Shown here: piece by piece, positions 41,408-64,000 of the stretch
Position numbering within the stretch: position 1 is the stretch's first letter
Layout: every line of letters starts with the position of its first letter
From: Selaginella tamariscina
Taxonomy: Eukaryota > Streptophyta > Lycopodiopsida > Selaginellales > Selaginellaceae
Direction of reading: 5' to 3'
DNA: 64,000 nt
Assembly: GCA_003024785.1 (NCBI GenBank)
Contig: PUQB01000092.1
Span: 305,001-369,000, forward strand
Translations under genes and position numbers: made by a program
Notes under the pieces: generated by a model
What the model saw: the letters and a program-made list of their open reading frames with translations, nothing else
What the model was told of the DNA's origin: nothing
Database searches by the model: none

Positions 41408-42317
41408 CGAATTGTGTAGGAGATATGAAAAAACACTATGAAATTCAATGTGAAACATATATATATCTAACTTTATTTCTTTTTAACTACGGCTACAATA
41501 AATCTCCTACTCTTCTACTCCACTCTATTGGGTCTCGCTACATGTGTGCGTATTATTATTAGATTAACAGATAAAACCTCTAGAGGTAGAATCAACAGAT
41601 GCACCTCGATCTATATTAAACTTTTATATAAAATATTCACCTAGTCCCACCGCTAAAGAATATATACCTGATTATGATTTTATATATTCGAAGTTTGACA
41701 TTTAAAAGTAAAAATAAGACCTCAACCGACTTTAATTTATTAAATAACACAGGAACAATGACAAGTATATACTGTATTGTCCTATATACTAATTTACGTT
41801 TATTGTAGCTCTAATCACTAATTCCCTTCCTGGTTTCATTTTTATAGCGACAGCAAACTTATAATATATATATATATTACCGGGGCGTTCCGTCGAGCGG
41901 GCTCACGATCCGTTCGCACACTCGTTCCTACTTGCTAACCGCGTTGCCAAAGAAACCCTACACAATGCCAAGAGAGGAGCCCTAGAGATATATATACATA
42001 GAGCAACCCTAATCTCACGTGTATACGTGATGCTCCACGTACTCATAAACCCCAGCATTCTTCATTTATCACCCTCGACTTCCTCTTGCATCGTCTTAAC
42101 TGCATTTTAATCAGTCTTCCCATTCACTTTCCACTATTTACTTCCAATACTTGTAACCATGTTTTTATTTTATTTTACTTGTTTTATGTTTACTAAAAGA
42201 AGCTCGCTCCTCTCGATTTGAAAGAAATTCAATGTGCTCTAGTAGCATAAACTAGTTAAATCAACACTGGTATAACAATCTCTAAACTTGACTTCATTTT
42301 CATAAGTTAGATGCACC
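41408..42317. other. Intergenic, MATE promoter side
   Basis: The stretch at 41880-42120 is GC-richer (CCGGGGCGTTCCGTCGAGCG, ACACGTGTATACGTG-like motifs) and could be a promoter or an unrecognised 5' exon. I see no conserved coding sequence. The rest is AT-rich. Confidence 0.45.
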
Positions 42318-42697
42318 TTGTAACTAAAATGGGCATGTTTATAAAGTTATTTAATTAGTAGTTTTTAATATTAAAAGAATATTTTTTAAAATAATATATG
42401 TTTAAAAAAAGAGTATTCTTTAAAATGTATGTTTAAAAATTGATAATATTATAGAATAGAAGGTATTAAGTTATATAATATATTATATTTAAGATTGTAC
42501 AAGCCTAATATAAAAGTTATTAAAAAGCATGAGAGGTACATTATATAAATATTTATGTTGTTATTAAAATACCAATATTTAATTATAACATTAATTAAAA
42601 ATTTGCAATAATAATAATATATATATATACAAAATCCTATATGGTCAATCTTCCATATCTTTTTATAAATTTATATAGTTAAGGAAACAATTTGGTA

Positions 42698-45603
42698 CTA
42701 TTTTAAAGAATTAATTATAATTATGAATATTAAATATACTATATTTTGTAATTGCTTTAAACTTAAAAGAAGATCATGTTTTATAAATATTAAATCCATT
42801 CGATATAGGTGAATGTCAAGAAGTGTTAATAAAGTAATAATTAACAAAATTGTAAAAGAATATATATTGTTTTTTCTAGGCATTCATTATACCTTTCGCT
42901 TTTTTTCTCATGTCGCCTTTTTTGCGATTTGAACCATACAACCTTTATTATTGTTTTTTTGTGATTACTTCAACTATAATTTAACATATCTAAATAAGTT
43001 GGTTATATGACACATATGAAATAATAAGGACAATCATCAGTTGTTGAAAATCCTTGCAACAATCAAAGTGTGAGGTTTGCATTTCTACATCACTATTGGC
43101 TTATATGTTACACACTCATTGATGTGGTTTCAATCTCCTTCGGGCAGGCCAAAAAGGATGTTGTAATTTTGTACTTGTGACAATAGGCTTTTTTAACTCT
43201 CGAACAACAATCTCCTAATAATTAACCACATGTTTATATAATAACCACATGAATAAGGTTTGGTTGTCCTTCTGGGAAAAGTGGCTTTTCATTCTCTCAA
43301 CTTTTGAAGAGTATTAAATCTTCTTTGGGTAATCACTCCATTTTGATGGTCGTAACTTATATTGCATAATAGATATACCATCTCTTATGAAAAAGAATTG
43401 TAATGGCATAAATGACTAGTTAAAGAATTGTTCCCCTTTTTAATATACTCTTTGAAAAACTTTTTGAAGTTTGACACTTCAATCACAAGTAACACAACTT
43501 TTTTTAAGATGTAATTTTTTAAAAGATTATCATATATGGTAAGTAAGTGCACTTGTCCATTTTATAAAGTTAACCTTAGTGAAGAATGCATCAATATCTT
43601 CATGAGTGTGACCAACCATAAGAAAACTAAGCATGATTATCTCAAACACACCTTTGGCAACAAGCATTAACAAGTATGCTAATATGTATCTAAAAAATAC
43701 AAGTAAGTATGAGCTTAAAAAACCCTTAACTAAAATGATTTACCTATTTTTGTTCTCGCATACACAATTGTCCATTTGTAAGAAAGCTTATTTGATGTTG
43801 ATGACATTTGTACCTTATCTGAGCTAGATCCCTCCACTGAACTAGAACTCTCAATAGGCCATCTGTTTTTTGTGTAGGCTATTGACATTGCCTTCCATAT
43901 TCCCAAGTAGCCTCAAGTGCAAACATGTTCATGAGAGCATTGTAAAAACTAGAGGTGTTGTTTCTTCACTTTGAGATCACCCATAGGACTTGTTTGTGAG
44001 TGGGCTTCAAGGTTTTTAACAATGACCCAACAATGACTAAGTTGCTAGACTAGTGTGGAAGTGAAAAATGTCCATATGATTCACAATTGTGTCCATGTGT
44101 TAGCACATTTGTTAATAAAATCGGAAGTTTCATGATATTTTCAAGTACTTTGGTGTTGCAACTAGCTTTGGAATGTTGGTCTTTAAATAATTCATCTTGT
44201 TATGGATCAAGCATAAGTATTCTGATGGATATAACACAAAAAACATGCGGTGTGCATAGTAATGAAATCGGCAAGTTTTTTGTGCAATTATGTGGGCCTC
44301 CATCTTCTTTGAATGGCAATGATCTTCACTAAGGTTTTTGCATAAGCCTTTGCAGCCTTCAACGATGTAGGAAAGCTAGAGTGTTTTGCAATCTCCACAT
44401 TTTAAACTGAGTATTTCATATGTTGTTGAAGGTACCAATGCAGATTATTTGAGCCCCATCAAACTAAGGCACTTGTTCACATGTTCACAATACCTTAATT
44501 GAGTAAAACCTTGAGATTTTCCTTGACTCCTGCATCTGTGGTATGGCATTTGTGAGGTATCCTATTTGCATTTGCCTTCACAAAAGCCTTGAGTATCTCT
44601 ATGATTGCCATAATGTGAGAGCAGGTTTTGACCAAGTGAGTGTTCCTATGTACTGAGGTGTGCACTCCATTTGCCACTCATCTCTCTAGTGGTAGAACGT
44701 GGTCTTTGGGATCTCGTATATAATGTACCAAATTTTGAAGTAGATGGTCACCTTATTAAATACCATGGATGTACTCTAATAACATGTGTTCAATGCCATT
44801 CCATCAATACACCCAGTTAGTGCAGCATATACAAACTCATGCCTTTGCTTTTGGGTGAGCTTACGAAAGGCATGTTTACTTTGGGTAATTTCATTCTAGT
44901 TCACCATCTGACAACACTTTTTCTTGCAGTAGTCAATCATGAAAATGTTAGCAACACTTGCTAAAGATGTGAGATTCATTTTGACCCTCTTGCCAAAACT
45001 TGCTGGAGTTGATTTGCAGCCCATGAATCTCCTTTTCCTTACTATAGGAGGGTTGTTACTATTATAATCCAACCCGAAATATGTTGAACTATTTGGCCAT
45101 TTTAGTTCAAATGTTCACCACCTCACGAGAGATCTAGGATGAAATGTGCCATTTGGTGAAACCTTTATCACAACTACACCCATGAAGTAAGCCCCTAATT
45201 CCTCTTTTGATACAACTTCCATTGGATTGATAGTTGAGATAATGCCCCTCCCAACTTCAATCTCATGAAAAAAGAGAATCACCTCATCCCTTACAACAGG
45301 CAAGCCATCATCTTGTGAACTTGTACTAATATTTATTTATAACTTTGCATTCTTTGTGTCAGCCTTAACTTCATCCACATTTCACAATATAGAAGTACCC
45401 TCTTCAAATTCTATTCCAAGAATCTTAACGTGCTTGTAAATAGTGTTCACCCAAACGTACACACACAACCCTTGGGCAATGTTATGATATGACGCATTAT
45501 CATCTTGAATTTCCATAGTTCCAATGCTAACTATCTCGTTGTTCTGAAGAATACATACTTTATCTTTAATATTAAACATATTGCACATAAATATTTGTGT
45601 CAT
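42698..45603 (-). pseudogene. Degenerate DUF7869-like gene
   Basis: Remnants of the protein intact at 60027-63145. The N-terminal VCILQNNEIVSIGTMEIQDD (45540-45480) and DEVILFFHEIEVGRGII (45290-45240) survive. So do the FYRR-type helix region, the HKCHTTDAGVKENLKVL block (about 44520) and parts of the SHGHTHEDID region (43600, now TLVMKILMHSSL-like with shifts). Multiple stops and frameshifts, including loss of sequence in the middle of the gene. Not functional. Confidence 0.8.
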
Positions 45604-45713
45604 TTATGATTTTTGTTTATGCAATATGCAATAAAATCTAAATTGAGGCTTAATATAGCAATGACATATAATTATATAAGAATAAATTCTCATGCTTAAT
45701 TAATACAAGTGGT

Positions 45714-45858
45714 GGCGGGATTAATCCCGTCCACAACTCTCTCTGACGGGAGGAGGTGGCGAGATTAATCCCGTGAATACTTCCCGTCTCCTAAAATTAT
45801 GAACAAAATTAATCTTGCCCACCATTTTAAGAAAAAGCATTAGCGGGATTAATCCACC
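45714..45858. repeat. Four palindrome relics upstream of the decayed element gene
   Basis: GGCGGGATTAATCCCGTC (45714-45731), GGCGAGATTAATCCCGTG (45758-45775), a GAACAAAATTAATCTTGCCC block (45801-45820) and GCGGGATTAATCCACC (about 45843-45858) are degenerate versions of the palindrome GGCGGGATTAATCCCGCC. Spacing of about 40-45 bp matches the intact array. Confidence 0.85.
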
Positions 45859-46136
45859 TCCTAAAATGGTGAGTGTAATTACACATTGACTTATTGCGAT
45901 GTGCCAATTGGTAAAATTACTTTTAGGATTTAAGAATCTATTAGAATTGCACTAAAATCCATTAAGAATTTATTTCGTTTACACATCCCTTTACTTAGAA
46001 TTCTCAGTTAGCCAAGATTTCATAAAGTTCTCGCTAGGATGGCTTCCATGCCTCCTAGAATGGTGGGCAAGATAAATCCTGGCTCGGGAATAGCACACAA
46101 CACACGCGTTAAAAACATCCAATTGTGAGCCTTAGT

Positions 46137-46173
46137 GTTTAGGGTTTAAACCCTAAACTTGTTTAGGGTTTAG
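46137..46173. repeat. Interstitial telomere-like repeats, partly inverted
   Basis: GTTTAGGGTTTAAACCCTAAAC is a head-to-head pair of plant telomere units (TTTAGGG/CCCTAAA), followed at once by TTGTTTAGGGTTTAG. Isolated TTTAGGG units also occur near 47151 and 47180. Confidence 0.7.
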
Positions 46174-46849
46174 AGTAAATGTATATTAAATTCATATAAA
46201 CGTGCATGGTTTTAATTTCTATGTCTTAAAGATTATACACTATATATTATATATATTATGTGCTATAGTTTTAATATGTTTTAATATCACTCTGTCATTT
46301 TAAATTACAATAGAGTAAAATTCAAATATATGTATACGATTTTAATGTAGGGCAAATTATAATTTGTATTTTTAAAAATAATTTATAAATCACTAGAATG
46401 ATTTATGATATTAATAGCTATTTGACTATAAAAATTCTTTATGCGTATTTTCTTATGCATTTTTATATGAATAATATACTTTTTATACAAATATTAAAAT
46501 TCAATAATAAAATACTTGCATTGGGTTTAAACCTTAAATATATATAAGGGTTTAAGCATTTATTGGGGTGTAGGGCTTAGTGTATAGGGTCAAGGGACTG
46601 CAATAAAGGATTTAAATCATAAATCAAACAATTAATAATATGTAACAATGATCATATGTCTAATGCTTAGAAAGAGGGGAGGAAGAGCCTCATCTAGAAG
46701 GCCCTTGTAAAGAGGGGCAACGATTACCAACAATGATCATTCTCAATTAATCATTTATCTCGGTAAATAAGCCAATATTAAAATTATGTGAACACTAGGC
46801 CCAGTTCGGGGGATTTGTTGCTTTTTTTTCAAAAGCGTCATGTTAAATG

Positions 46850-46939
46850 CATGTATGATTCATATGTACTATGTGTATATGACACATTCACACATGTATG
46901 ATTCATATGTACTATGTGTATGTGACACATTCACACATG
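46850..46939. repeat. Tandem duplication of a 43-bp unit
   Basis: The unit CATGTATGATTCATATGTAC..TGTGTAT(A/G)TGACACATTCACA occurs twice in succession with one difference. The region 46940-47170 continues with shorter TGTGTATGTATAT-like repeats. No coding potential. Confidence 0.85.
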
Positions 46940-47394
46940 CAATACATGTGTGTATGTATATATGTGTACTAATGTATGTAATGTGTGTGAAATTAATATT
47001 TCATATATACATGTGTATGTATGTATTGTGAGTATGTGAAAACTTAACACTCTCACAAACACACATATGTTAAACCCCTGCATGATTCATATTTTTTTTG
47101 TGTATGTGATACACCCACACCCATATGATAATATAACAAAAGAATATTTATTTAGGGTTAATATATATTTTATTGATTTTAGGGTTTAATTAATATATAT
47201 TTTATTAATAATATTTTATTGATGGTAGAAGAGTAGAATGGTGGTGGAAGATTTGAGAGCAGCGCATTATCACACCATAGATCCACTCTCACAAAAAGGC
47301 AAGAAGGTGTGGTTATGCAAGAAGGCATGGCGGTGCAAATAGGGTTTGAAGGTGGCAGTGCAGCAAGGGTTTGAAGGCGGGATTCACACAAGTA

Positions 47395-49525
47395 AAATCT
47401 TCTCTTTCAAACACACACCTGTATGTGAATGGACATGTGTATTGATATATATAAGTTATTTATCTCTCTCTCACACACGCACACTCTTGTATATACATAT
47501 ACATATATATATGTGTATTTGTATATTATAATTTATTTATTTATCTCTCTCTCTCACGCACACACACACACCTATATATTAATATACATATATATGTGTG
47601 TGTGTCTGTATATTATATTTTATTTATCTATCTCTCGCATGCATAGACTCTACGGTAACACGCTGGTGACTGCTTACTGGATGTTGTTGTATGATATTCT
47701 TAATTTGACATTGGAGACATGCCTTACACACACATGTATATACATATACATGTGTATGTATTTGTATAATTTAATTTATTTATCTATCTCTCGCACACAC
47801 ATGCACACTTCTGTATATACAAATATATATATGTGTATATCTAATTTAATTTATTTATCTCTCTCTCTCACACACACACTATATGTGTATATACCTGTGT
47901 ATTTATAATATAATACATATATATAATTACTTTATCTCTCTCTCAACACACACTCTTGAATGTATATGTATGTGTGTATTTGTATATATGTAATTTTTTA
48001 TCTCACACACACACCTATATATATACGTACATGTGCATTTGTATATATATAAGTTCTTTATTTCTCTATCTATCACACACACACAACTGTATGTATATGT
48101 ACATGTATATTTGTATTTTATAAGTTCTTTATCTCTCTTTATCACACACACACAATTGTATGTATATGTACGTATGTATTTGTAAATTATAATTTCATAT
48201 ATTTCTTTCCCACACACACACATGCTTGAGACAGGGAAGTGATGGTGAAATTAATCCCGCCCACCATTCTAGGAGGCGGGGAAGCATTGACAAAATTAAT
48301 CTTGCCACCCTTTTCTGTTTCAGAGAGTATGGGCGGGATTAATACCGCCAACCAATTTAAGAGGCGAGAAAGCTTTAGTAGAATTAAACACACACATATA
48401 TGTGAATATACCTATATATATAGTTCTTTATTTCTCTTTCACACACACACATATGTATTTATATATACATGTGTATTTATATATTATAATTCCTTAATCT
48501 CTTTCTCTCACACACCTCTCTAAAACAGAGAAGGGTGATGGGATTAATCCCGTTAATGCTTCCTTGCCTTCTAGAATGGTTGGTGGGATTAATCCTGCCA
48601 ACCATTTTAAGAGGTGGGGAATTTTGACGGGATTAAATACACACCTGTATGTGAATGTACATGTGTATTAGTATATATAAGTTTTTTATATATCTCTCTC
48701 ACACATATATATTATAATTTTTTTATCTTTCTTTCATACATACATGTATTTATATGTACGTGTGTATTTGTCTATTATAATTTCTATATATCTATCTCTC
48801 ACACACACATTCTAGGAGGTAGGGAAGTGGTGACGGAATTAATCCCACCACCCCTCCCTGCCTCCTAGAATGGTGGGCAAGATTAATCTTGTCCACAACT
48901 CTTTGAGACGGAGAAGGGTGGCAGGATTAATCCCTGTGTATAAGTATATAAGTTTTTATCGCTTTTGTATTTATATGTACATGTGTATATTATAATTTCT
49001 ATATTTCTCTCTCTCCCACACACACACACCTGTATATACGTATATAAATGTGTATCTCTATATTATAATTAATTTATCTCTCTTTCACACACACACACAC
49101 ACTCTTGAATGTATATGTATGTGTGTATTTGTAAATATGTAATTTCTTTATCTCTCTCACACACACCCATATGTATATTTACATGTATATTTGTATAAAA
49201 AACAATTCTCTACTCTTAAGCCAGCAGGATTAATCTCGCCAAGACGATTCCTTCCCTCTTTAAGCCTTTGTAATTACACACCACACTTGTATGTATATGT
49301 ATGCGTGTATCTTTATCTTTACTCTCTCTCTCTCTCTCACACCTGTATTTATATGTACGTGTGTATCTTTATTATAGACCTGCTAAAGACGATTCATAGC
49401 TTCCTTAGGGTTGGTAGGATTAATTTCCTCTTCGAGCCATAAGCATTAATCCCATGAAACAGTTCCTCCTCTTTTCGGGCCTAACAAAATTAATCCTGCC
49501 AAGACGATTACTCTTCTAGTGGAAT
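47395..49525. repeat. Composite satellite: 70-bp microsatellite units interrupted by decayed palindromes
   Basis: About 20 units of roughly 65-75 bp follow the scheme (CT)n, (CA)n, TGTATATGTACATGTGTAT-type sequence, TATTATAATTT, TTTAT. Embedded in the array are at least ten degenerate copies of GGCGGGATTAATCCCGCC, near 48246, 48286, 48332, 48540, 48583, 48833, 48880, 48917, 49223, 49415 and 49485. Apparent open frames (for example 47429-47908) come from the repeats. Confidence 0.8.
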
Positions 49526-52500
49526 TAATCTTGCAATCTAATTAGTTTATGCACTTCAAAGATAAATATTTATAAACCTTGTAAAGGTTTAATTGTGTAT
49601 TTGTATATTTGGGTTTGTATAAGTGTGTGCATCTTAATAAAATTGTATTCATAGTGTAATATTGTGCAGACTTAATCAAACAAAGTGATTTTGATTATTA
49701 GTACGGAGTCGTCTTCAGATTTTAAGTAAGAAATAAAACAAATTATGTTATACTTGCACATGTGTTTGAAGAACTTATGATTTTTGCATTCATTTATGTG
49801 ACATTAAAGACAAGAAGAGGAGATGGGATTATAGAATTAACTTGGTCATATTTTAAAATAAACGGGAAGCGCATTAGATCAATCATAGTTGTTGGGTGCT
49901 TGATTATTAAATCTACTTTTTATTGTTTTGTTTATCCACGTGATGTGACAAAGATTAATTTGATGAGGGTAGGCTGCAAACCGAGATTGGACGATGCTCA
50001 AAATATATACCTCGTTTCATCCAATGTAACGTTCTTAAATTCGGAGGAGGCCAGATATGACTCAAACCTCTGTCGACTTGCAAATTACAACGTTCACGTG
50101 TTCACTAATGATGTCAACCATGGAGTTTTTCTTTAACTAAACAAAAACCATATATAAAGGGGATCCGATATTATTCTTCGAGGATCTCAATACTCATCAA
50201 GTAGGTGTATTCACAGTATATATTGCTTCATAATATAAAAGATCCATAAAATAAGCAATCGTCCCAACTATCATTGAAGTAGAACACAATAATATTATTA
50301 GGGAGATTGAGAAGGTAGCTCAATCCCAAGTTTTTTACAATTATTTTCAATTTGCTTGGGAATCTTCAAAAGTTAGAAAAGTGTGCCAAGAACACTAGAA
50401 CAATTGTAGTTGGGACTCACACATATTGATTCTGATTATAAGAGAAAGTCTTTTGTCGTTCTATCAATTACACTAGTGGCATCCCATATTGCAATAAGTC
50501 ATAAGGAAATGATGTTGAATGACAGGATTTATAAGTGTAAAGTTAAGTATTGTAGCGTTAACCCTAACTTCAACTATAGACCACTCAACTAGAAACATGT
50601 AACTGATCTCATAAAGAAGATAAAGGACGACAATTGTACATAGTCCCATATAATGCCGTTTTGTGCCCATATTATAAAAGAAAAAAAGGCACTAAGATAA
50701 TGTGGGTGACAACACCAGACCAAATTATGAAGATTCAGACAAAGGGTAAAAAATAAATAAGGTATTACATTATTAACAGCCAACACACGATAATGGCAGC
50801 CTAAGAACTCCTCAATGAACACATGGTAACAAAACTTCTTCTAGCATACCTGTGTGAAGCTAAAAACAATGTTCTCAGGAAGACCATGGTGTCAGAATAC
50901 TTTGCAGATCACCAACTTAGCAGTTGTTTGGTCTGTAGCAAGATCGGCTTTTTTAGCTAAGCTTAATCTCATAACCAAGCAAATATCATAAGCTATCTAC
51001 GGTATGGGATGGTGCTGACACCAACCATTACAATAGCAAAATATAAAAGAAGTTCAAACACACACAATCCATGTGGGTAACTCTTGGGCGGTCGTAAAGA
51101 GCTATTGCAAGGAGAGAACAAAGTGCAAAATACCGGGTAAGAAAATTCTTGGCAGGATTTATCTTGCCAGCATAATAATCTTTAATTAATCCATTTGTAA
51201 AAAGCTAAGGAAATTACTTCAGTTAATTTTGCTTAGGTGGGCAGGAAGGAAACATCCTTCTTGATGATGCTAATTTCTTGTCCCAAGGATAAGGTCTTTA
51301 TCAAATGAGTGGGGATCATGGAATCGCTTGCGAAAAGAACACTAAAAAAAAAGCAAACGAGTGAAGGAAAGAACCCTCAAAGAAGTCTACAAAGAAACCC
51401 AGTAAGATGCTAAAGGTTAAGTTTGTCCAACTTGTGAAGGATGTAGATAACGACTTCAAACTCACATGGTTTAAGCTTATAAATGAACAACAATGGATCA
51501 GATGGATGTGTTAGCTGATTTGGTGGTTAATGGCAAACTACAAATTAATAACAACATTCCCACCTCTCCTTTTCATCTTAAGGCAATGGAGCTAAAGACG
51601 ATTGAACACTTTAAAGAATGGTTGGGAATACACTACCATAAATTGGGTTGAACCTCGGCTCTAGCATACGAGGAGGTTAGCAAATATTTGAAGGTGACAG
51701 ACAATGATATGTTTGTCTAATGGGTAAACCAATTGGAAGATCTGGGCAAGAATCTATTACATATTAATTCTAGAAAGGAGAACATCACGATGACATCTTC
51801 TCTTATGGCAGTCCTTCAGTAAGTGAGAACCGAGTTGAACCTGATAAAAGAGGATGTTACGAATCATTACAAGCCTTACAAATGTTTATTGTCAGATTCA
51901 AGACTTTATGAGGTAACATCACTACTTGTAGAAAATCTTTTCAAATGTTCGTAATGGATCTGTGAGTATCAAAAAATCCATCTTTAGATAGGGCACTAGA
52001 AGATTTAATGGAGAAGCTTAACCGTGCAAGCATGTATAGAAAAGTATTCCTTATTTAATTTTTGCACACTTACATGATACATACATCTTTAGGTATTTAT
52101 TTCTTGATTTTTACTCATGTTATTAATACCTTCACATTTGACTTCGCCAAGAAGAATAAACATCATTGAACTGGATTTTACATGAATGATATTAATCTCA
52201 GATGTATTGATACGTTTATTCACTTGGTTGTTTGGAATGCGCTAAACAATTTCAAACTTCCAATCGATTGGCCAAGCACACAATTTGATTTCAACAAGCA
52301 TTGTAGTGTTGTAGAAGAAGTAATTCATAAAGATTGAATTTTTGACCAACGATTTTGTTATAAACCTCTCAAATATTACGATGTGAGAAAGTAAAGCAAG
52401 TCATACTTCTTCAAGAATGAAAGAATAATTGGGCTTTATTGTGAGATCAATCAATTAAGGATAATGAAGAATGCACATATCTTAGTGGAAAATGACTCTC

Positions 52501-53220: not shown

Positions 53221-53614
53221 GTAAGGTTAATTAAGGATTAATTAATTAATTAATTAATAATTAAGACTTAAATACATTTATTAAAATAATTAAAGCTTAA
53301 GTATTAATTAATAATTTATTTTATATTCCCATTTTCATGTATCATACACAATTTAGTTACAACGTGCATTCATTATACTAAATAACCAACTAGATATCTT
53401 GTCATAGCCTGATCCATGTCTTTCACACCATTAGATTAAAACAAGAACTTGCTTTTGCATCCCAAGTGTCACAACCTTTCCCTTTCTTCTTAAGCCAACA
53501 AATGGTGTTTATGAAAGGGCCCCAGGTCACTAAATGGTGTGCGCTAAACAATTGTTTAGCGCATTCCAAACAACCAAGTGAATAAACGTATCAATACATC
53601 TGAGATTAAAAATT
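52195..53614. repeat. Pair of inverted 55-60-bp repeats 1.3 kb apart
   Basis: 52195-52252 (ATCTCAGATGTATTGATACG.. to ..GGAATGCGCTAAACAATTT) is the near-exact reverse complement of 53556-53614. A further partial copy (TTTGGAATGTGCTAAACAAT) is at 53650. Directly beside the right copy is the palindrome GCGCTAAACAATTGTTTAGCGC (about 53547-53568). This may mark element ends; target duplications were not found. Confidence 0.75.
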
Positions 53615-54536: not shown

Positions 54537-55084
54537 CAGAGTTTTAACTCGGAGGGCTAACATGTGGCAACACTTGACCGCCAAGTGGCCTTTTAACGTC
54601 AATTCTCTGTGTAAGCAACGCTAAGTCTTCTAAGATGACCCCAAGAGTCTAACACAGATGCCTAATTAAACAAAAGACTTAGAGTCCTACCCTAAGTCCC
54701 CTAGAATGACCATCCCTCGAACCCTAGAGGATATCCTGAGTAGACTTTAAGATCCTATCCCAATAGACCTAGACATGCTCATGCCCTAACCTCATCAAGG
54801 AGATGTGCCTTACATATACCCCCGTGACAAAGCTAAGGCATTGCCACTTACCCCTTAAGAAATCACCCTCATTTGGGCATACAAAACCCTTTAGAGAGAC
54901 AAGGGGTACCCTGAACCACGACTAACACCATAGGCAGACACGAGTGTTCTGCTAAGCAAAACTCCCTAAGATTAAGTTTGGATAACCCTAAGTATATGAC
55001 CTTGCGAGTGCCTCACGAAAGTGCTCTTGCTAACAAGCTTAGGTTGTTCAACCCTGGATTCCAAGGAGAACACTTCCCTAGCCA
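54537..55084. repeat. Repeat shared with 20.5 kb, left flank of the foldback
   Basis: Homologous to 20470-20895 (see that entry). It is GC-richer and less decayed here. It joins directly to the left arm of the inverted repeat, so it may be part of the same larger element. Confidence 0.65.
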
Positions 55085-57870
55085 AGTGTGCCAAAGTACA
55101 CCTAGTTACGAGACCTAACCTCCCTTGAGTCGATGCCCAAGGCTTAGCACCCTAGTGCGAGCACCAACATGCCTTTTTACTAGAGTATCCAACCCCTTGG
55201 CAACAAACTCATGACACAACCCCAAAGGGCATGCCTCAGACATTGTATCGTGTAACGTATAACCCAATGTCATATTTCCATGTGACACTACCTTTCACAG
55301 TGAGGGCTATCATGCCATAGCCCTTAGATTCAAGAGTTGCACCAAGTGCCACAAACATGGCTCTTAAATGCCAACTCTAGAACCCCTTAATGAACCCTCA
55401 GGAACTAGGTAATGTGAACCTGTCAAACAAGATCCTACACCCATAGTTCAACAAGGACATAAATGTGCCTTGCTTGACCATGAGTGCTACACCTAGCTTC
55501 ACATGGAGGAGGAGGCTGGAGACAAGCCTCAACCTCTACCTCTTGGAACGTGCATTTTGACAAGACTTTCCAGGCATGGATTCGCCAACGTTAAAGGTGA
55601 GCTACCCCAAAGGTGGGACGTACCCCTACCATTTGAAAGTACCTTAACGACATAAGATGAAGCTTGCACCGACAGAAGAGCAACGAACTCAGTCATGAAC
55701 CCAGAAGCTCTCCTACATGTACTACTTAATATATGTGACAAAGCCCCCCCCCCCTCCCCCCCTCGTTTTTCGGGCTGGAATAGAATCTCATTCCTAAAGG
55801 GAATATACTTGGTGAGTTAATTAATGACCCATTAACCCCTAAACCCTAACCTGAAGGGTTTAGGGCATGGGTTAGGGCAACCTTAGGGTTAGGTCAACCC
55901 TAAGGGTGTTTCTACCATATCCGACATGCCGAACTTATCGGAACCACCCAAAAACCTAACTAGGACACAAAAAATCAGGGTAAGAGTTTTTTAGAAGGTA
56001 AGTGCTATTTTCGCTTAGAGTTTCTCGCGGTATCAGCCGAACTACCCCTAAACACCTAAGTGCACTAAACGGGGTTGTTTCTCACTACATCTAGGGCTTA
56101 TCAACATAGTTCGGTAGGTAACAACAGACAACATCCAAAGTAAAGAGGAGTCATAGTAAAAACTATGACAATCCACATTAGAACAGCTTATGCATCCGTT
56201 GCCAAAAACATGTCCCAAATGAGCTCTCAATCTTTCTCCTTCCCCATTCTTATAACCACAATGTTTGCATTCCCATTTTTTCTTTCATCTACCCTTGTTG
56301 TATAAGCTTAGTATTATTACCTCAATTTTAGTCTCTTGAATTTGCATTATTTACTTACAATTTTTGGATACTTGTGCTAGGTGTGTCTTAATCACTGTTG
56401 TGTGCTTGATGTGTCTTATTCATTGTTGTAGGTTGCAAACATTTATTAATATTGTGTACATTCTAATATCTTTAGTTGAGTCCGCATTTACAAAATATAA
56501 TAATAGTTTAAATAATGTATGCCTTGAGTCCTTGTACTCAATGTAGAGGTTAGTAGTATTCACAAAGGAGTTAAAATCTTTTTAACAACAAATCAATGCT
56601 TAAGGCTAAGGTTTTGCATAAATTGACATGCCTTGAAGAATATTGCACTCAAATCTAAATGACTAGTACTAGCTATATACATTAAATAACATATCATATT
56701 CCATTACAACTTACCCCTCATTGTCCCTTGGAGTGTGGTTGGTTTGCAGAATTTGTCAAAAACACCCAAGTGTCATAGTTTTTACTATGACTTCTCTATA
56801 ATTTGGATGTTGACTATTGTTACTACTGTATTATATTAATGGATCTTAGATGTAGTAGAAAACATGCCCATTTAGTGCACTTTAGTAGGTCTGGTTGGTA
56901 TCATTAGGTATTTGCAAGAAACTTTATGCGAAGCAAAACGTACATTCTAGAAAACCCACCTTTTAATTTGATGTCCCAGTTAGATTGATTGATTAATGTA
57001 AATGAGTTTGCCATGTTAAATAGGGTAAAAACACCCCTAGGGTTTACCTAACCCTAAGGTTGCCCTACCCTTGGGTGGTAGGAGTTAGATTAAAGGTAAG
57101 CTCATCTAATTGACTAAGGGATTGACATTCTATGCCAGCCCACTTATACATATAAGAAAAGAGGGAGGAGGCTCCATCACATAAATAAGGTAGAGTATGT
57201 AATATAAGAGTTCATGGGTTCCTAATAGAGCTCATTAGTCTTCTACCAGTGCAAGCTTTAGCTTGTCGTCGTTAAGGCACAACCCTCTGTTGTGCCGCCT
57301 CAACTTCCAAACAATAGGGGTACATCCCACCTTTGGGGTAGCCTATCCTTAATGTTTGGTGAATCCATGCCTGGAAAGTCTTATTGGACTGTTCCAAGGG
57401 TCAGAGGTTGGGCTTATCTTCAGTCTCTTTCTCCACGTCAAGCTAAGAGCAGCACTCACAACTAAGCAAGGCACATTCATGTCCTTGTTCAACTATGGGC
57501 GTGGATATTAGCTAACATGGTTTCCTTATCGAGTTCCTGAGGGTTCATAAAGGAGTTCTAGAGTTGGCATTTAAGAGTCACATTCGTGACACTTGGTGTA
57601 ACTATTGAATTTAAGGGGCAATGGCATGATAGCCCACATCGTAGGAGACAATGTCACATGAAGATGTGACACTAGACTTGACGAAACACGGTACAACACT
57701 CAAGGCACACCCTTTGGGATTGTGTCATGGGTTTGTCACCAAGGGGTTGGATACTCTACCAAACAAACATGCTTGTACTCGCACCATGGTGTTAAGCCTT
57801 AGGCATCAGCTCAAAGGAGGTTAGGTCTCATAACTAGGTTTGCTTTTAGCACACTTTGTGTCATAGTTCT
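55085..57870. mobile_element. Large foldback structure: about 1.1-kb inverted arms around a 0.6-kb centre
   Basis: The left arm 55085-56170 is the diverged reverse complement of the right arm 56770-57870. Matching landmarks: GTGCGAGCACCAACATG / CATGCTTGTACTCGCAC; GCAAGGCACATTCATGTCC / GGACATAAATGTGCCTTGC; CCATGCCTGGAAAGTCTT / AAGACTTTCCAGGCATGG; CAACCTTAGGGTTAGG / CCTAACCCTAAGGTTG; GTCATAGTAAAAACTATGAC / GTCATAGTTTTTACTATGAC. No protein is encoded in the arms or centre. The arms are about 75-85% alike by eye. A poly-C run lies at 55745-55763. Confidence 0.8.
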
Positions 57871-59010: not shown

Positions 59011-59530
59011 TTGAATAACGATTGTTGATTTCTTAGATTTAATGACTGATAATGAAAATACTTAAAATTGTCTTTCCTTATTTAATAATGTAAGGCTCTA
59101 ATAAATTTTTTTTTTATGTGTTATCTGCATTAGTGACCCAAATGCCACAATGTGTTACAACTTAAAGCAAATGAACATTTAAAATAATTTAAACTTATTT
59201 AATTTTTACATAGTAATATGAATTATTCATTCATAATATTTTTTTTCAAAAAAAAATTCAAACTAATGAAAATTTATTCATTTATAAGGGAAAAATGTTC
59301 CTATATATTTAATTATGCAAGTTAAATTATGTATTTACAAAGTGAATTTTAAATTTAACAAACTTCACCATTGAATCCAATAAAATCCAATGATAAACAT
59401 GACAATTAAAAAGTTTCACTTAGTGAAATATGAGTTATTCATTCATTTAAATTTAACAATCAAATACTTTAGCTATATTATTAAATAACACATGAAATTA
59501 CCTTAGGTTGAACTACAAAGATATTGCAAG
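59011..59530. other. AT-rich spacer
   Basis: AT-rich DNA between the minisatellite and the inferred left edge of the DUF7869 element. Nothing recognised. Confidence 0.5.
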
Positions 59531-60026
59531 TTGTAACTAAAATGGGCATGGCTATAGTCCCATTTCCTAATAATTAGCAATTTTAGCTATTTAATTAGCA
59601 TTTTCTAATATTAAAGGAATATTCTTTAGAATATATGTTTGAAAAAGAATATTCTTTAGAATATTCTATTTTGTATTCTACCCTTTAATAAATTATAGCA
59701 TTCATTGAACAAAAATTAATAACATTATAAAAGTAGAATGTATTAAATTATATAATATATTGCCTAATATAACAATTAAGGAAGAGCATAAGAGGTACAT
59801 TATATAAATATTGATGTTGTTATTAAAATATTAATATTTAAATATAACATTATTAATTAAAAATTTGTAGTAATAATATATATATAAAATCCTATAATAA
59901 TATAGTCAATCTTCCATATCATTTTTTAAATTTATATAGTTAAGTATACAATTTGGTACTATTATTAAAGAGTTTATAATAATTATGAATATTAAATATA
60001 TGATATTTTATAATTTTGTAATTGCT

Positions 60027-63000
60027 TTAAGCTTCAGAAAACATACATTCCCTTGCAGTTTTGTTAATCGTGACTTTATCAACGCTTCTTGACATCCACC
60101 CATATCGAATGGATTTAACATTTATAAAACATGCTGGGTCTTTTTGATTGGGAGACCATGTTTTCTCTAGGCATCCATTATATCTTTCGCTCTCCTTCTC
60201 GTGTCGCCTTTTTTGTGGTTTGAACCATGCAACCTTAACAATACTATTTTTTGTGATTACTTCAGGTGTGTCGATAATTTGACCCATCCAAATAGGCTGA
60301 TTATATGACGCATCTGGAGTAATGAGAACCATCATTAGTTTTTGAAGATCCTTGCAGCAATCAAAGTATGCTTTAGGTTTTTGGTTCCTTTGTCCAACAA
60401 AGTGTGGGGTTTGCACTTCCACATCACTACTGGCTTCTATGTCGTCTGTGCTCAGTGATGTCATTTCAATCTCCTCTCGCCACCTTGTTTTAGGCCAGAA
60501 AGGGTGTTGCAATTCTGTACTTGTGACAGTAGGCCCTTCCAACTCTCGAACAACAGTCTCCCAATAGTTGACCACATGCTTATATAGTTCTGAGTAACCA
60601 GTTGCCTTATCAGAATTCTTTGGCATCGATTTTTGAACCCATGCCACATATTTTTTGATGCCATCAATAATAACCTCTTGTTCCTTGAGCTGGGCACTCA
60701 ATGGAATAGGGTCTGGTTGTCCTTCTGGGAGAAGTGGCTTTCCATCCTCTCCACTTTTGAAGAGCATTAAGCCCTCTTTCGGTAACCACTCCTGCTCTGA
60801 TGGCCGTAACTTGTACTGCATAATAGGTATACCATCTCGTATGGAGAAAAAGAATTGTAGCGGCACAAGGTGACCAACTAAAGAATCACTCCCTTCTTTT
60901 ATATACTCCTTGAGAAATTTTTTGAAGTCTGGCACCTCAGTCACAAGCAAAGCACAACTTTTTTTGGAGATGCAATTTTCAAAAAGATTCATCATATGCG
61001 GTAAGGTAAGTGCACTTGTCCTTTTTGTAGAGTTGGAGACCTTGCTGAAGAACGCATCAATATCTTCATGAGTGTGACCAACCATAAGGAAACTGAGCGT
61101 GATTGTTTCAAAACACACCTTTGGCAACAAGCATTGACAAGTATGCTAGCACATATCTAGAAAATAAAAGTAAGTATGAGCTTGAGAAACCCTTAAGTAA
61201 AATGATTTACCTATTTTTGTTCTCGCCTGCACAATTATCCATCTGTAAAAGCAAATGACGAGGAAGCTTATTTGATGTTGAGGACACATGTACACTATTT
61301 GAGCTAGATCCCTCCACTGAACCTGAACTCTCAACAGGGCCATCTGTTTTTTGTGCAGGTTGCTGACAATGCCTCTCATATTCCCAAGTAGCCTCAAGTG
61401 CAGACGTGTTCATGAGAGCATTATGTAAAGGTTGAAGGTGTTGTTTCTTCACTTTGAGATCACTGATAGGACTTGTCTGTGAGTGGGCTTCAAGGTTTCT
61501 GAAACACATGGCTAACGACCCAATAGTGAAATTGGAGTCGCTAGACCAATGTGGAAGTGAAAAGTGTCCATATGACTCACAACCGTGTCCATGTGTTAGC
61601 ACACCTGTCAATGAAATCGGAAGTTTCATGACATTTCCAAGGCACTTTGGTGTTGCAAAGAGCTTTGGAATGCTGGTCTTTGAATGATCCATCTTGTCAT
61701 GGATCAAGCACAGGTACTCTGATGGGCGTGACACAGAAAGCATGCGGTGTGCATAGTACTGAGACCGGCAAGTTTGTTGTGCAATCATGTGGGCCTCCAT
61801 CTTCCTTTGAATGGTAGTGATCTCCACCAAGGTTTTTGCACAAGCCTCTGCAGCCTTCAATGATGTACAAGTGTCACACTTAGAAAAGCTAGAGTGTTTT
61901 GCAATCTCCACATCCTTAAAATGAGTATTCCATATGTTGTTGAAGGTACCAGTGCAGATTGCTTGGAGCCCCATCAAACTGAGGCACTTGTTCACATGTT
62001 CACACAGTTTCAATTGAGTGTAGATTGAAGGTAAAACCTTGAGATTTTCCCTGACCCCTGCATTTGTGGTTCGGCATTTGTGAGGCATCCTGTCTGCATT
62101 TGCTTCCACAAAAGCCTTGAGTATCTCTATGGCTGCCATGATGTGAGAGCGGGTTTTGACCAAGCCAGTGTTCCCATGAACTGAGGTTCGCGCTCCATCT
62201 AGCCACTCATCCCTCCGACGGTAGAACGTGGTCTTTGGGATCCCGTATATACTGTACCAAGCTTTGAAGCAGATGGCCACCTTATTAAATACCATGGATG
62301 TACTCTGATAACCTGTGTCCGAGGCCATTCCATCAATACACCCAGTTAGTGCAGCATATACAAACTCATGCCTTTGCTTTTGGGTGAGCATACGAAAGAC
62401 ATGTCTACATTGGGTAATTTCATTCCGGTCTGCCATCTGACAACACTTCTTCTTGCAACAGTCAATCGTGGAAATGCTCGTAACACTTTCGGAAGATGTA
62501 GGATCCATCTTTACCCTCTTGCTGAAACTTGCAGGGGAAGATCTACAACCCATGAATCGCCTTTTTCTTACAATAGGACCAATGCAAGGAACCTCTTCAA
62601 ATATGAGTTGTTCTTCCGGGTTGTTATTATTGAAATCCAACCCAGAATATGTTGAACCATCTTGCCGTCTTAATTCAGATGTTCGCCACCTCACGAGGGA
62701 TCCAGGATACAATGTGCCATTAGGTGAAACCTCTGTCACAACTACACCCACGAAGTCGGACCCTAGTTTCTCTTCTGACACTGCTTCCATTGGATTTATA
62801 GCTGTGATGATGCCTCTTCCGACTTCAATCTCACGAAGAAAGAGAATCACCTCATCCATCAGCAGGCAAGCCATCATCTGGTAAACTCGTGCTACTATTT
62901 GTTTGTGACTCTGCATATTTTGTGTCAGCCTTGACTTCATCCAAATTCCACAATACAGGAGAACCCTCCTCAAATTCCATTCCCAGAACCTCAACATGCT

Positions 63001-63145
63001 TGTAAATGGTGTTCACCCATACGTACACACAAGATCCTTGGGAAATATTGTGACATGATGCATTATTATCTCGAACTTCCACAGTTCCAGTGCCAACTAT
63101 CTCGTTGTTCCGAAGAAGACATACTTTATCTCCAGTATTAAACAT
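60027..63145 (-). CDS. DUF7869-like transposon protein, about 1,000 residues
   Basis: Starts MFNTGDKVCLLRNNEIVGTG, an N-terminal domain reminiscent of small domains in plant transposon proteins, then DEVILFLREIEVGRGIITAI. The middle has CCKKKCCQ, IPKTTFYRRRDEWLDG (helix-turn-helix-like), a CDTC pair near 61890 and IHDKMDHSK. Exon 1 ends LLLQMDNCAGENKNR; an intron of about 67 bp (61207-61140, GTAAAT..CTAG) joins YVLAYLSMLVAKGVF and FLMVGHTHEDIDAFFSKVSN. MDNCxxENKN, then GHTHEDID, is the DUF7869 hallmark. The acidic residues in DKMD, MDN and EDID suggest an RNase H-fold nuclease or transposase, which is inference. Two frame breaks (near 62870 and an extra T near 61110) otherwise interrupt a clean frame. 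The C-terminus ends ARECMFSEA. Not viral; host range and mechanism unknown. Confidence 0.8.
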
Positions 63146-63298
63146 ATTGTCCTGCACATAAATAATTGTATTATTTATGATATCTGTTTATGCAATATTT
63201 TTAAGAAATCTGAATTACGGTTACTTAATAATATGCATATGCAATAATACATAATTATGTTTAGAGATAATATCTCATGTTTGATTAATACAACTGAT

Positions 63299-63991
63299 GG
63301 GCGGGATTAATCCCGCCCACGAATCCCTCCGACGAGGAACGGTCGGCGGGATTAATCCCGCCGCCGACTCAACCCCTTCGGAGAGAGTCGGCGGGATTAA
63401 TCCCGCCTTGGACTCCCTCCGACAAGGAAGAGCCGGCGGGATTAATCCCGCCGCCTCTTCCTCCTCGGGGGAGTCCGGCGGGATTAATCCCGCCGACTCT
63501 CTCCGACGAGGAAGGGAGTCCGGCGGGATTAATCCCGCCGCCGACTCAACCCCTTCGGAGAGAGTCGGCGGGATTAATCCCGCCTTGGACTCCCTCCGAC
63601 AAGGAAGAGCCGGCGGGATTAATCCCGCCGCCTCTTCCTCCTCGGGGGGTCCGGCGGGATTAATCCCGCCGACTCTCTCCGACGAGGAAGGGAGTCCGGC
63701 GGGATTAATCCCGCCGACTCATCCTCGCCGGAGAGAGTCGGCGGGATTAATCCCGCCGGACTCCCTTCCTCGTCGGAGGAAGAGGCGGCGGGATTAATCC
63801 CGCCGGCTCTTCCTTGTCGGAGGGAGTCCAAGGCGGGATTAATCCCGCCCACAATTCTTACGACGGGGAATGGGTGGCGGGATTAAACCCGCACATAACT
63901 CTCTCCAAAACTATGATTTCAAAGAGATCTCGGGATAAATCCTGTCCCCAAATCTTTAAAACAGGGAAGTGGTGGCGAGATTAATCCCGCC
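63299..63991. repeat. Higher-order array of the palindrome GGCGGGATTAATCCCGCC
   Basis: Thirteen perfect 18-bp palindromes start at 63300 (core of a 20-bp version), 63345, 63390, 63435, 63477, 63522, 63567, 63612, 63653, 63698, 63740, 63787 and 63832, then decayed ones at 63876, about 63930 and 63974. Linkers of 23-29 bp fall into four types (ACTCAACCCCTTCGG; TTGGACTCCCTCCGACAAGG; CTCTTCCTCCTCGG; ACTCTCTCCGACGAGGAAGG) arranged A-B-C-D-A-B-C-D, so the period is 176-177 bp. After 63715 linkers appear as reverse complements of the earlier types (the 63805-63831 linker is exactly inverted B). GC content is far above the surroundings. Open frames here are by-products. Confidence 0.95.
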
Positions 63992-64000
63992 ACCCCTTCC

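Follow-up and report, generated by a model that had tools for sequence, protein, structure and literature searches.

In the CACTA transposons of plants, TNPA recognises subterminal repeats, is needed together with TNPD for transposition and regulates the activity of the element, as described in excerpts of two reports (PMC2613891, PMC8195511). These excerpts also state that CACTA repeats differ widely between families and that all those compared appeared to combine a GC-rich with an AT-rich part (PMC2613891, PMC8195511). Galileo and Tetris, foldback elements of Drosophila, contain internal tandem repeats subject to expansion and rearrangement, according to excerpts of two further reports (PMC4168063, PMC4079207). 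Here we describe an array of 18-bp palindromes upstream of a DUF7869 (PF25273) gene in a transposon of Selaginella tamariscina, found in two copies, A and B, within a window of 64,000 nucleotides (assembly GCA_003024785.1, contig PUQB01000092.1, positions 305,001 to 369,000 of the forward strand). As in the CACTA excerpts, this is a plant DNA transposon with many short GC-rich/AT-rich repeats in direct and inverted orientation (PMC2613891, PMC8195511), but the present repeat is a perfect 18-bp palindrome, was seen on one side only and is perhaps internal. With Galileo and Tetris it shares transposon-internal tandem repeats prone to expansion, whereas theirs measure ~140 and 220 bp, form part of long terminal inverted repeats and, as far as the excerpts describe them, are not short palindromes (PMC4168063, PMC4079207). 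In the case of DUF7869 proteins, the likeness is a family match of the window gene in both of its exons.

The core array of copy B (63300..63849, unstranded, as are all palindrome features given below) consists of 13 perfect copies of the palindrome GGCGGGATTAATCCCGCC and 12 linkers of 23-29 bp each. A sequence-only reading of this DNA had reported 13 such copies 41-47 bp apart, and all of them were recovered, with starts at 63300, 63345, 63390, 63435, 63477, 63522, 63567, 63612, 63653, 63698, 63740, 63787 and 63832 and spacings of 45, 45, 45, 42, 45, 45, 45, 41, 45, 42, 47 and 45 bp. Beyond the core, degenerate palindromes are found at 63876 (two mismatches), at 63929 and at 63974 (one mismatch), together changed at 8/54 positions; they occupy 63876..63991, where the window end cuts the array. 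The first ATG of the DUF7869 gene lies ~155 bp from the start of the array, which is upstream of the gene and absent from its other side. All 22 matches to the 18-mer with up to three mismatches in the window fall in two arrays, 7 in copy A and 15 in copy B, while 100 dinucleotide shuffles gave none. Moreover, both DUF7869 gene copies in the window have an array at the same upstream place, so the suggested tie between the 18-mer and the gene was borne out on the scale of two copies in one 64,000-nt window. Given that the decayed copy A holds such an array at the same place and that all 22 matches lie inside the two arrays, the array is an integral component of the transposon.

The linkers of copy B, numbered L1 to L13 in order, have a higher-order arrangement. 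The 177-bp unit of four linkers that had been reported as repeated twice is indeed present at 63345..63697, the second copy being 176 bp long: L2 and L6, L3 and L7, and L5 and L9 are identical and L4 and L8 differ by one base. The added statement that the unit then inverts is partly right: it holds for L12, which is the exact reverse complement of L3, and for L11, which by eye is a hybrid starting as the reverse complement of L5 and ending as that of L4, whereas L10 is L2-like. Given L11 and L12, one unit was probably lost through exchange inside linkers. Linker orientation switches in 10 of 12 neighbouring pairs (L1 to L13), as scored against a consensus, alpha, written by ourselves, with L8 as a weak call and with pairs that are not independent owing to the duplicated unit. 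L13 fits alpha, and the next assignable outer linker fits a second type, beta (18.1), and alpha (17.4) about equally. Furthermore, mirrored flanks outscore tandem flanks at 10 of the 11 inner palindromes, which places these in larger mirrored surroundings, and four of the 12 core linkers (5, 9, 10 and 11) show a self-symmetry that fewer than 50 of 500 shuffles reached, whereas that of the remaining eight is ordinary. The spacing of about four helical turns that had been proposed proved loose: 45 bp corresponds to 4.29 turns of 10.5 bp, and the palindromes show no phase alignment at 10.5 bp (R 0.21), the highest value of the four periods tried being R 0.75 at 11.0 bp.

Differences from the consensus were counted in palindromes and linkers. 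Nine distinct linkers of copy B differ in 62/288 cells and the 13 core palindromes in 0/234, or 8/288 when the three edge palindromes are included (linkers against core, Fisher 4e-18, and 8e-14 with one palindrome counted per distinct linker), confirming that linkers have changed more than palindromes. The linker count includes gaps and the palindrome was picked for its invariance, so that the run test is what matters; here, an invariant run of 18 columns was reached in 0 of 20000 column permutations. The core array has a GC content of 65% and an observed/expected CpG ratio of 1.15, compared with 0.40 for its gene and 0.65 for the window, a pattern compatible with recent homogenisation or with protection from methylation.

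The gene of copy B is on the reverse strand. Its first part (61210..63145, -), for which the start codon and a frame break were set by eye, the frame being interrupted near 62.87 kb, encodes predicted N-terminal SH3/Tudor-like, helix-turn-helix (HTH)-like and winged-helix-like regions and the motifs HDKMD and LQMDN...ENKN. The second exon (60027..61157, -; splice junction by eye) encodes the GHTHEDID motif of DUF7869. Searched apart, both exons matched PF25273 above its curated cut-off of 26 bits (77.6 and 48 bits, E 1.2e-21 and 1.4e-12), which places the protein in the DUF7869 family. A total of 41 relatives were found at E <=0.001, with identities of up to 42%, and in a 37-row family alignment the HDKMD columns are invariant and LQLDN and GHTHxDID are in the consensus. 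Given these conserved motifs and an RNase H-like model, DUF7869 proteins look like DDE-type transposases, with the predicted RNase H-like catalytic domain and conserved acidic residues of a DDE/D DNA transposon. Searching solved structures by sequence gave no match for exon 2 or the family profile and one at E 0.49 for exon 1, and the single NCBIfam match (E 0.075) was far below its cut-off. Among viral contigs, seven stretches matched a DUF7869 pattern, none of which was confirmed, and the 18-mer occurred at one site in one contig, about chance level by a rough estimate. A decayed open reading frame (ORF) of 136 codons in the right part of copy A (49726-50136) was considered as a second, divergent gene; it has neither a relative nor a Pfam match, and a model with two genes and a bidirectional promoter is therefore unsupported.

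Copy A was detected by comparison of the window with itself, at 42.3-45.8 kb and in the same orientation as copy B. The two are 81% identical in a larger block (2661 columns) and 71% in a smaller one (1019 columns), or identical at 84% of 3427 positions with gaps left out. The decayed DUF7869 gene region of copy A (42316..45590, -) is marked by decay rich in C-to-T changes. Indeed, between 42301-45760 and 59521-63345, 303 of 556 differences are C-to-T or G-to-A, compared with 90 reverse changes, and the rates by context are 0.35 at CHG, 0.30 at CG and 0.19 at CHH. Since these changes dominate and are most frequent at CHG and CG, the decay looks methylation-driven.

At the place corresponding to 63,300, copy A has an array of 19 decayed palindromes (45714..49535). 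Fourteen of them form four clusters, in which nine of ten spacings are 43-45 bp and one is 40, and five are isolated (46066, 49223, 49413, 49483 and 49518). The consensus of the 19 is exactly the 18-mer of copy B, an agreement that is partly circular given that they were gathered by similarity to it; when ATTAAT sites were listed blind to their flanks between 45.6 and 49.6 kb, 16 of 26 were copy A palindromes. The linkers are of type alpha and of type beta, and their orientation switches in 8 of 9 neighbouring pairs, a count that includes three assignable cluster flanks, the fourth flank being not assignable. The sequence between the clusters is a CT/AC/TA-rich, dinucleotide-rich minisatellite. 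At 47400-49380 it takes the form of CT, CA and TATG blocks in a minisatellite of 73-85 bp, and a telomere-like TTTAGGG/CCCTAAA stretch is located inside copy A at 46130-46175. An additional isolated palindrome-like site (51151..51168), with more than three mismatches, lies in the right-hand portion of copy A as delimited by its candidate ends; it scores 14.2, the top score in positions 1-41,000 being 11.8.

The palindromes of copy A are changed at 83/342 positions, 67 of the changes being C-to-T or G-to-A, with 25/76 at CG, 13/38 at CHG and 29/114 at other C/G positions; these values are underestimates if anything, since the sites were found by similarity. Both arms of a palindrome changed together in 14 pairs compared with 14.1 expected (p 0.59), and 59/114 arm pairs are still complementary compared with 57.9 expected, so that no conversion between arms was seen in copy A. 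Hence, the palindromes of the dead copy A decay at roughly the rate of its gene, with arms changing independently, and ongoing repair between palindrome arms is not supported. Decay without arm covariation fits upkeep only while the element lived. The sequence-only reading had suggested selection or conversion acting on the palindrome; selection, or homogenisation, during the active life of the element is supported, but arm-to-arm conversion is not.

The left end of copy B (59525..59544, +) reads TGCA, two bases (NN) and TTGTAACTAAAATG, and that of copy A (42312..42331, +) has the same motif, the two having TTGTAACTAAAATGGGCATG in common. A candidate right terminal inverted repeat of copy A is found at 53349..53368 (-), which would give an element of ~11.05 kb with TGCA on both sides; TGCA is indeed found two bases outside all three ends (two left, one candidate right). 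In 1000 Markov simulations, the 17/20 letters matched by this inverted 20-mer were reached four times. The motif TGCANNTTGTAACTAAAWTG occurs without mismatch at 42312 (+), 53349 (-) and 59525 (+), with a fourth match of three mismatches inside the gene at 45098 (-); 0.32 matches would be expected, with a pattern written after the sites had been seen. A different inverted repeat, 60 bp long and perfect (52192-52251 and 53550-53609), encloses ~1.4 kb that include the site at 53,349-53,368, so that the right end of copy A is only a candidate; the 60-bp pair perhaps belongs to another, younger element overlapping it. The right end of copy B is beyond the window. If 53,349-53,368 is the right end, the array of copy A lies inside the element, with 3.4 kb separating it from the left end and 3.8 kb from the right. 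Palindrome-like matches near the left ends numbered none in 59500-60030 (0.7 expected) and two weak ones in 42300-45600 (4.5 expected). With no palindromes near either left end and the candidate right end 3.8 kb beyond the copy A array, the earlier proposal of a subterminal array is doubtful.

The element does not belong to CACTA by its left ends, its transposase domain or the placement of its repeats. No CACTA is present within 60 bases at either left end and the candidate ends of copy A are not flanked by a 3-bp duplication, with the caveat that right ends are uncertain; the left regions of copies A and B are without an array, so that repeats are not found in both subterminal regions. A Pfam scan of both copy B exons (E <=0.01) gave DUF7869 only and no TNP2-type transposase domain, and one relative (P0006) has a sub-threshold match to TNP1/EN/SPM (Transposase_23; E 0.2, 11.9 bits, cut-off 21). 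A TNPA motif has five matches with up to three mismatches in 63201-64000, which we judged to be probable chance matches in GC-rich sequence. Searches of the literature on subterminal or palindromic repeats, Spm methylation and plant transposon superfamilies, covering titles and abstract starts, gave no description of such an array. In the literature searched, there was no mention of DUF7869 and no occurrence of the 18-mer or its 16-mer, and a 12-mer was found only in an unrelated context.

Taken as a whole, we favour with moderate confidence that the array is the cis-control region of a DDE-type DNA transposon encoding a DUF7869 transposase, with the palindromes as putative dyad sites for an element-encoded dimer. 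Each palindrome would be recognised by a DNA-binding homodimer whose most likely source is the element itself, through either the N-terminal HTH/winged-helix region of its transposase or another product. The row of sites upstream of the gene could then load a cooperative complex, which would regulate transcription of the transposase and contribute to assembly of the transposition complex, in the manner of the TNPA-type repeats of CACTA elements. Binder identity, dimeric binding and control function are all inferred; the dimeric binder, already proposed in the sequence-only reading, is plausible from the winged-helix-like and HTH-like regions predicted with weak scores in the window's own protein. 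A broader claim, which we consider unlikely, is that DUF7869 elements form an undescribed transposon superfamily, in which identical dyads, set in mirrored linkers, would make up an internal operator array on one side, as opposed to binding sites at the termini. This array would be read by the element's own SH3/Tudor-like and winged-helix transposase and stay intact only while the element is alive. The same palindrome is present in a younger and in a decayed copy within one window, unchanged in the core of the former and being lost at about the background rate in the latter, which makes the pair a natural experiment on the way in which a transposon maintains its binding sites. A further point of interest is a plant transposase group (DUF7869), unnamed in the literature searched, with a candidate binding site.

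Other explanations were weighed against this cis-control reading. The array could be a minisatellite carried by the transposon and lacking any sequence-specific role. Its copies would have spread by unequal exchange and by inversion between palindromes, which would then be the shared recombining block. The duplicated 177-bp unit and the origin of L11 by exchange inside linkers agree with this, as do palindromes that are perfect in the centre and degenerate at the edge and the further minisatellites among those of copy A. However, exchange should homogenise linker and palindrome alike, and yet the linkers within the 177-bp unit differ strongly and the palindromes do not; moreover, the two elements share one 18-mer despite the second linker type of copy A. 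We regard this explanation as tentative, with perhaps a modest chance of being right. It is rather improbable that the array is a promoter array for a host factor, E2F-type or another cell-cycle factor, which would place expression of the element in S phase. The position of the array, ~155 bp from the first ATG and on one side of the gene, and its richness in GC and CpG would suit a promoter, and we take the palindrome half GGCGGGAT to resemble an E2F site. The plant E2F consensus is TTTCCCGCC, from which the AT part of the half site departs; E2F does not need a palindrome, and titles and abstract starts of the literature on E2F sites held nothing to the point.

Read-through RNA of the array could also fold into long double strands and feed small-RNA silencing, in line with the methylation-like decay of the copy A gene and with the folding of the core array, as single-stranded DNA, at -303 kcal/mol (z -39). 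Folding is however independent of the observed alternation (-305 with random orientation, -244 with one orientation, -208 with shuffled linkers), the arms do not covary in copy A and CpG is not depleted in the array of copy B, which leaves such a hairpin source quite improbable. That the array serves the transposon as a replication or chromatin boundary element appears highly improbable; the nucleosome repeat length is near 177 bp, so that the period of the linker unit is close to one nucleosome repeat, and the protein has an SH3/Tudor-like domain.

Elsewhere in the window, an inverted duplication of 1.1 kb is found at 55084-56170 and 56771-57856, the two arms being 71% identical, and PPR-like, WD40-like and XLG-like ORFs were recognised by eye.
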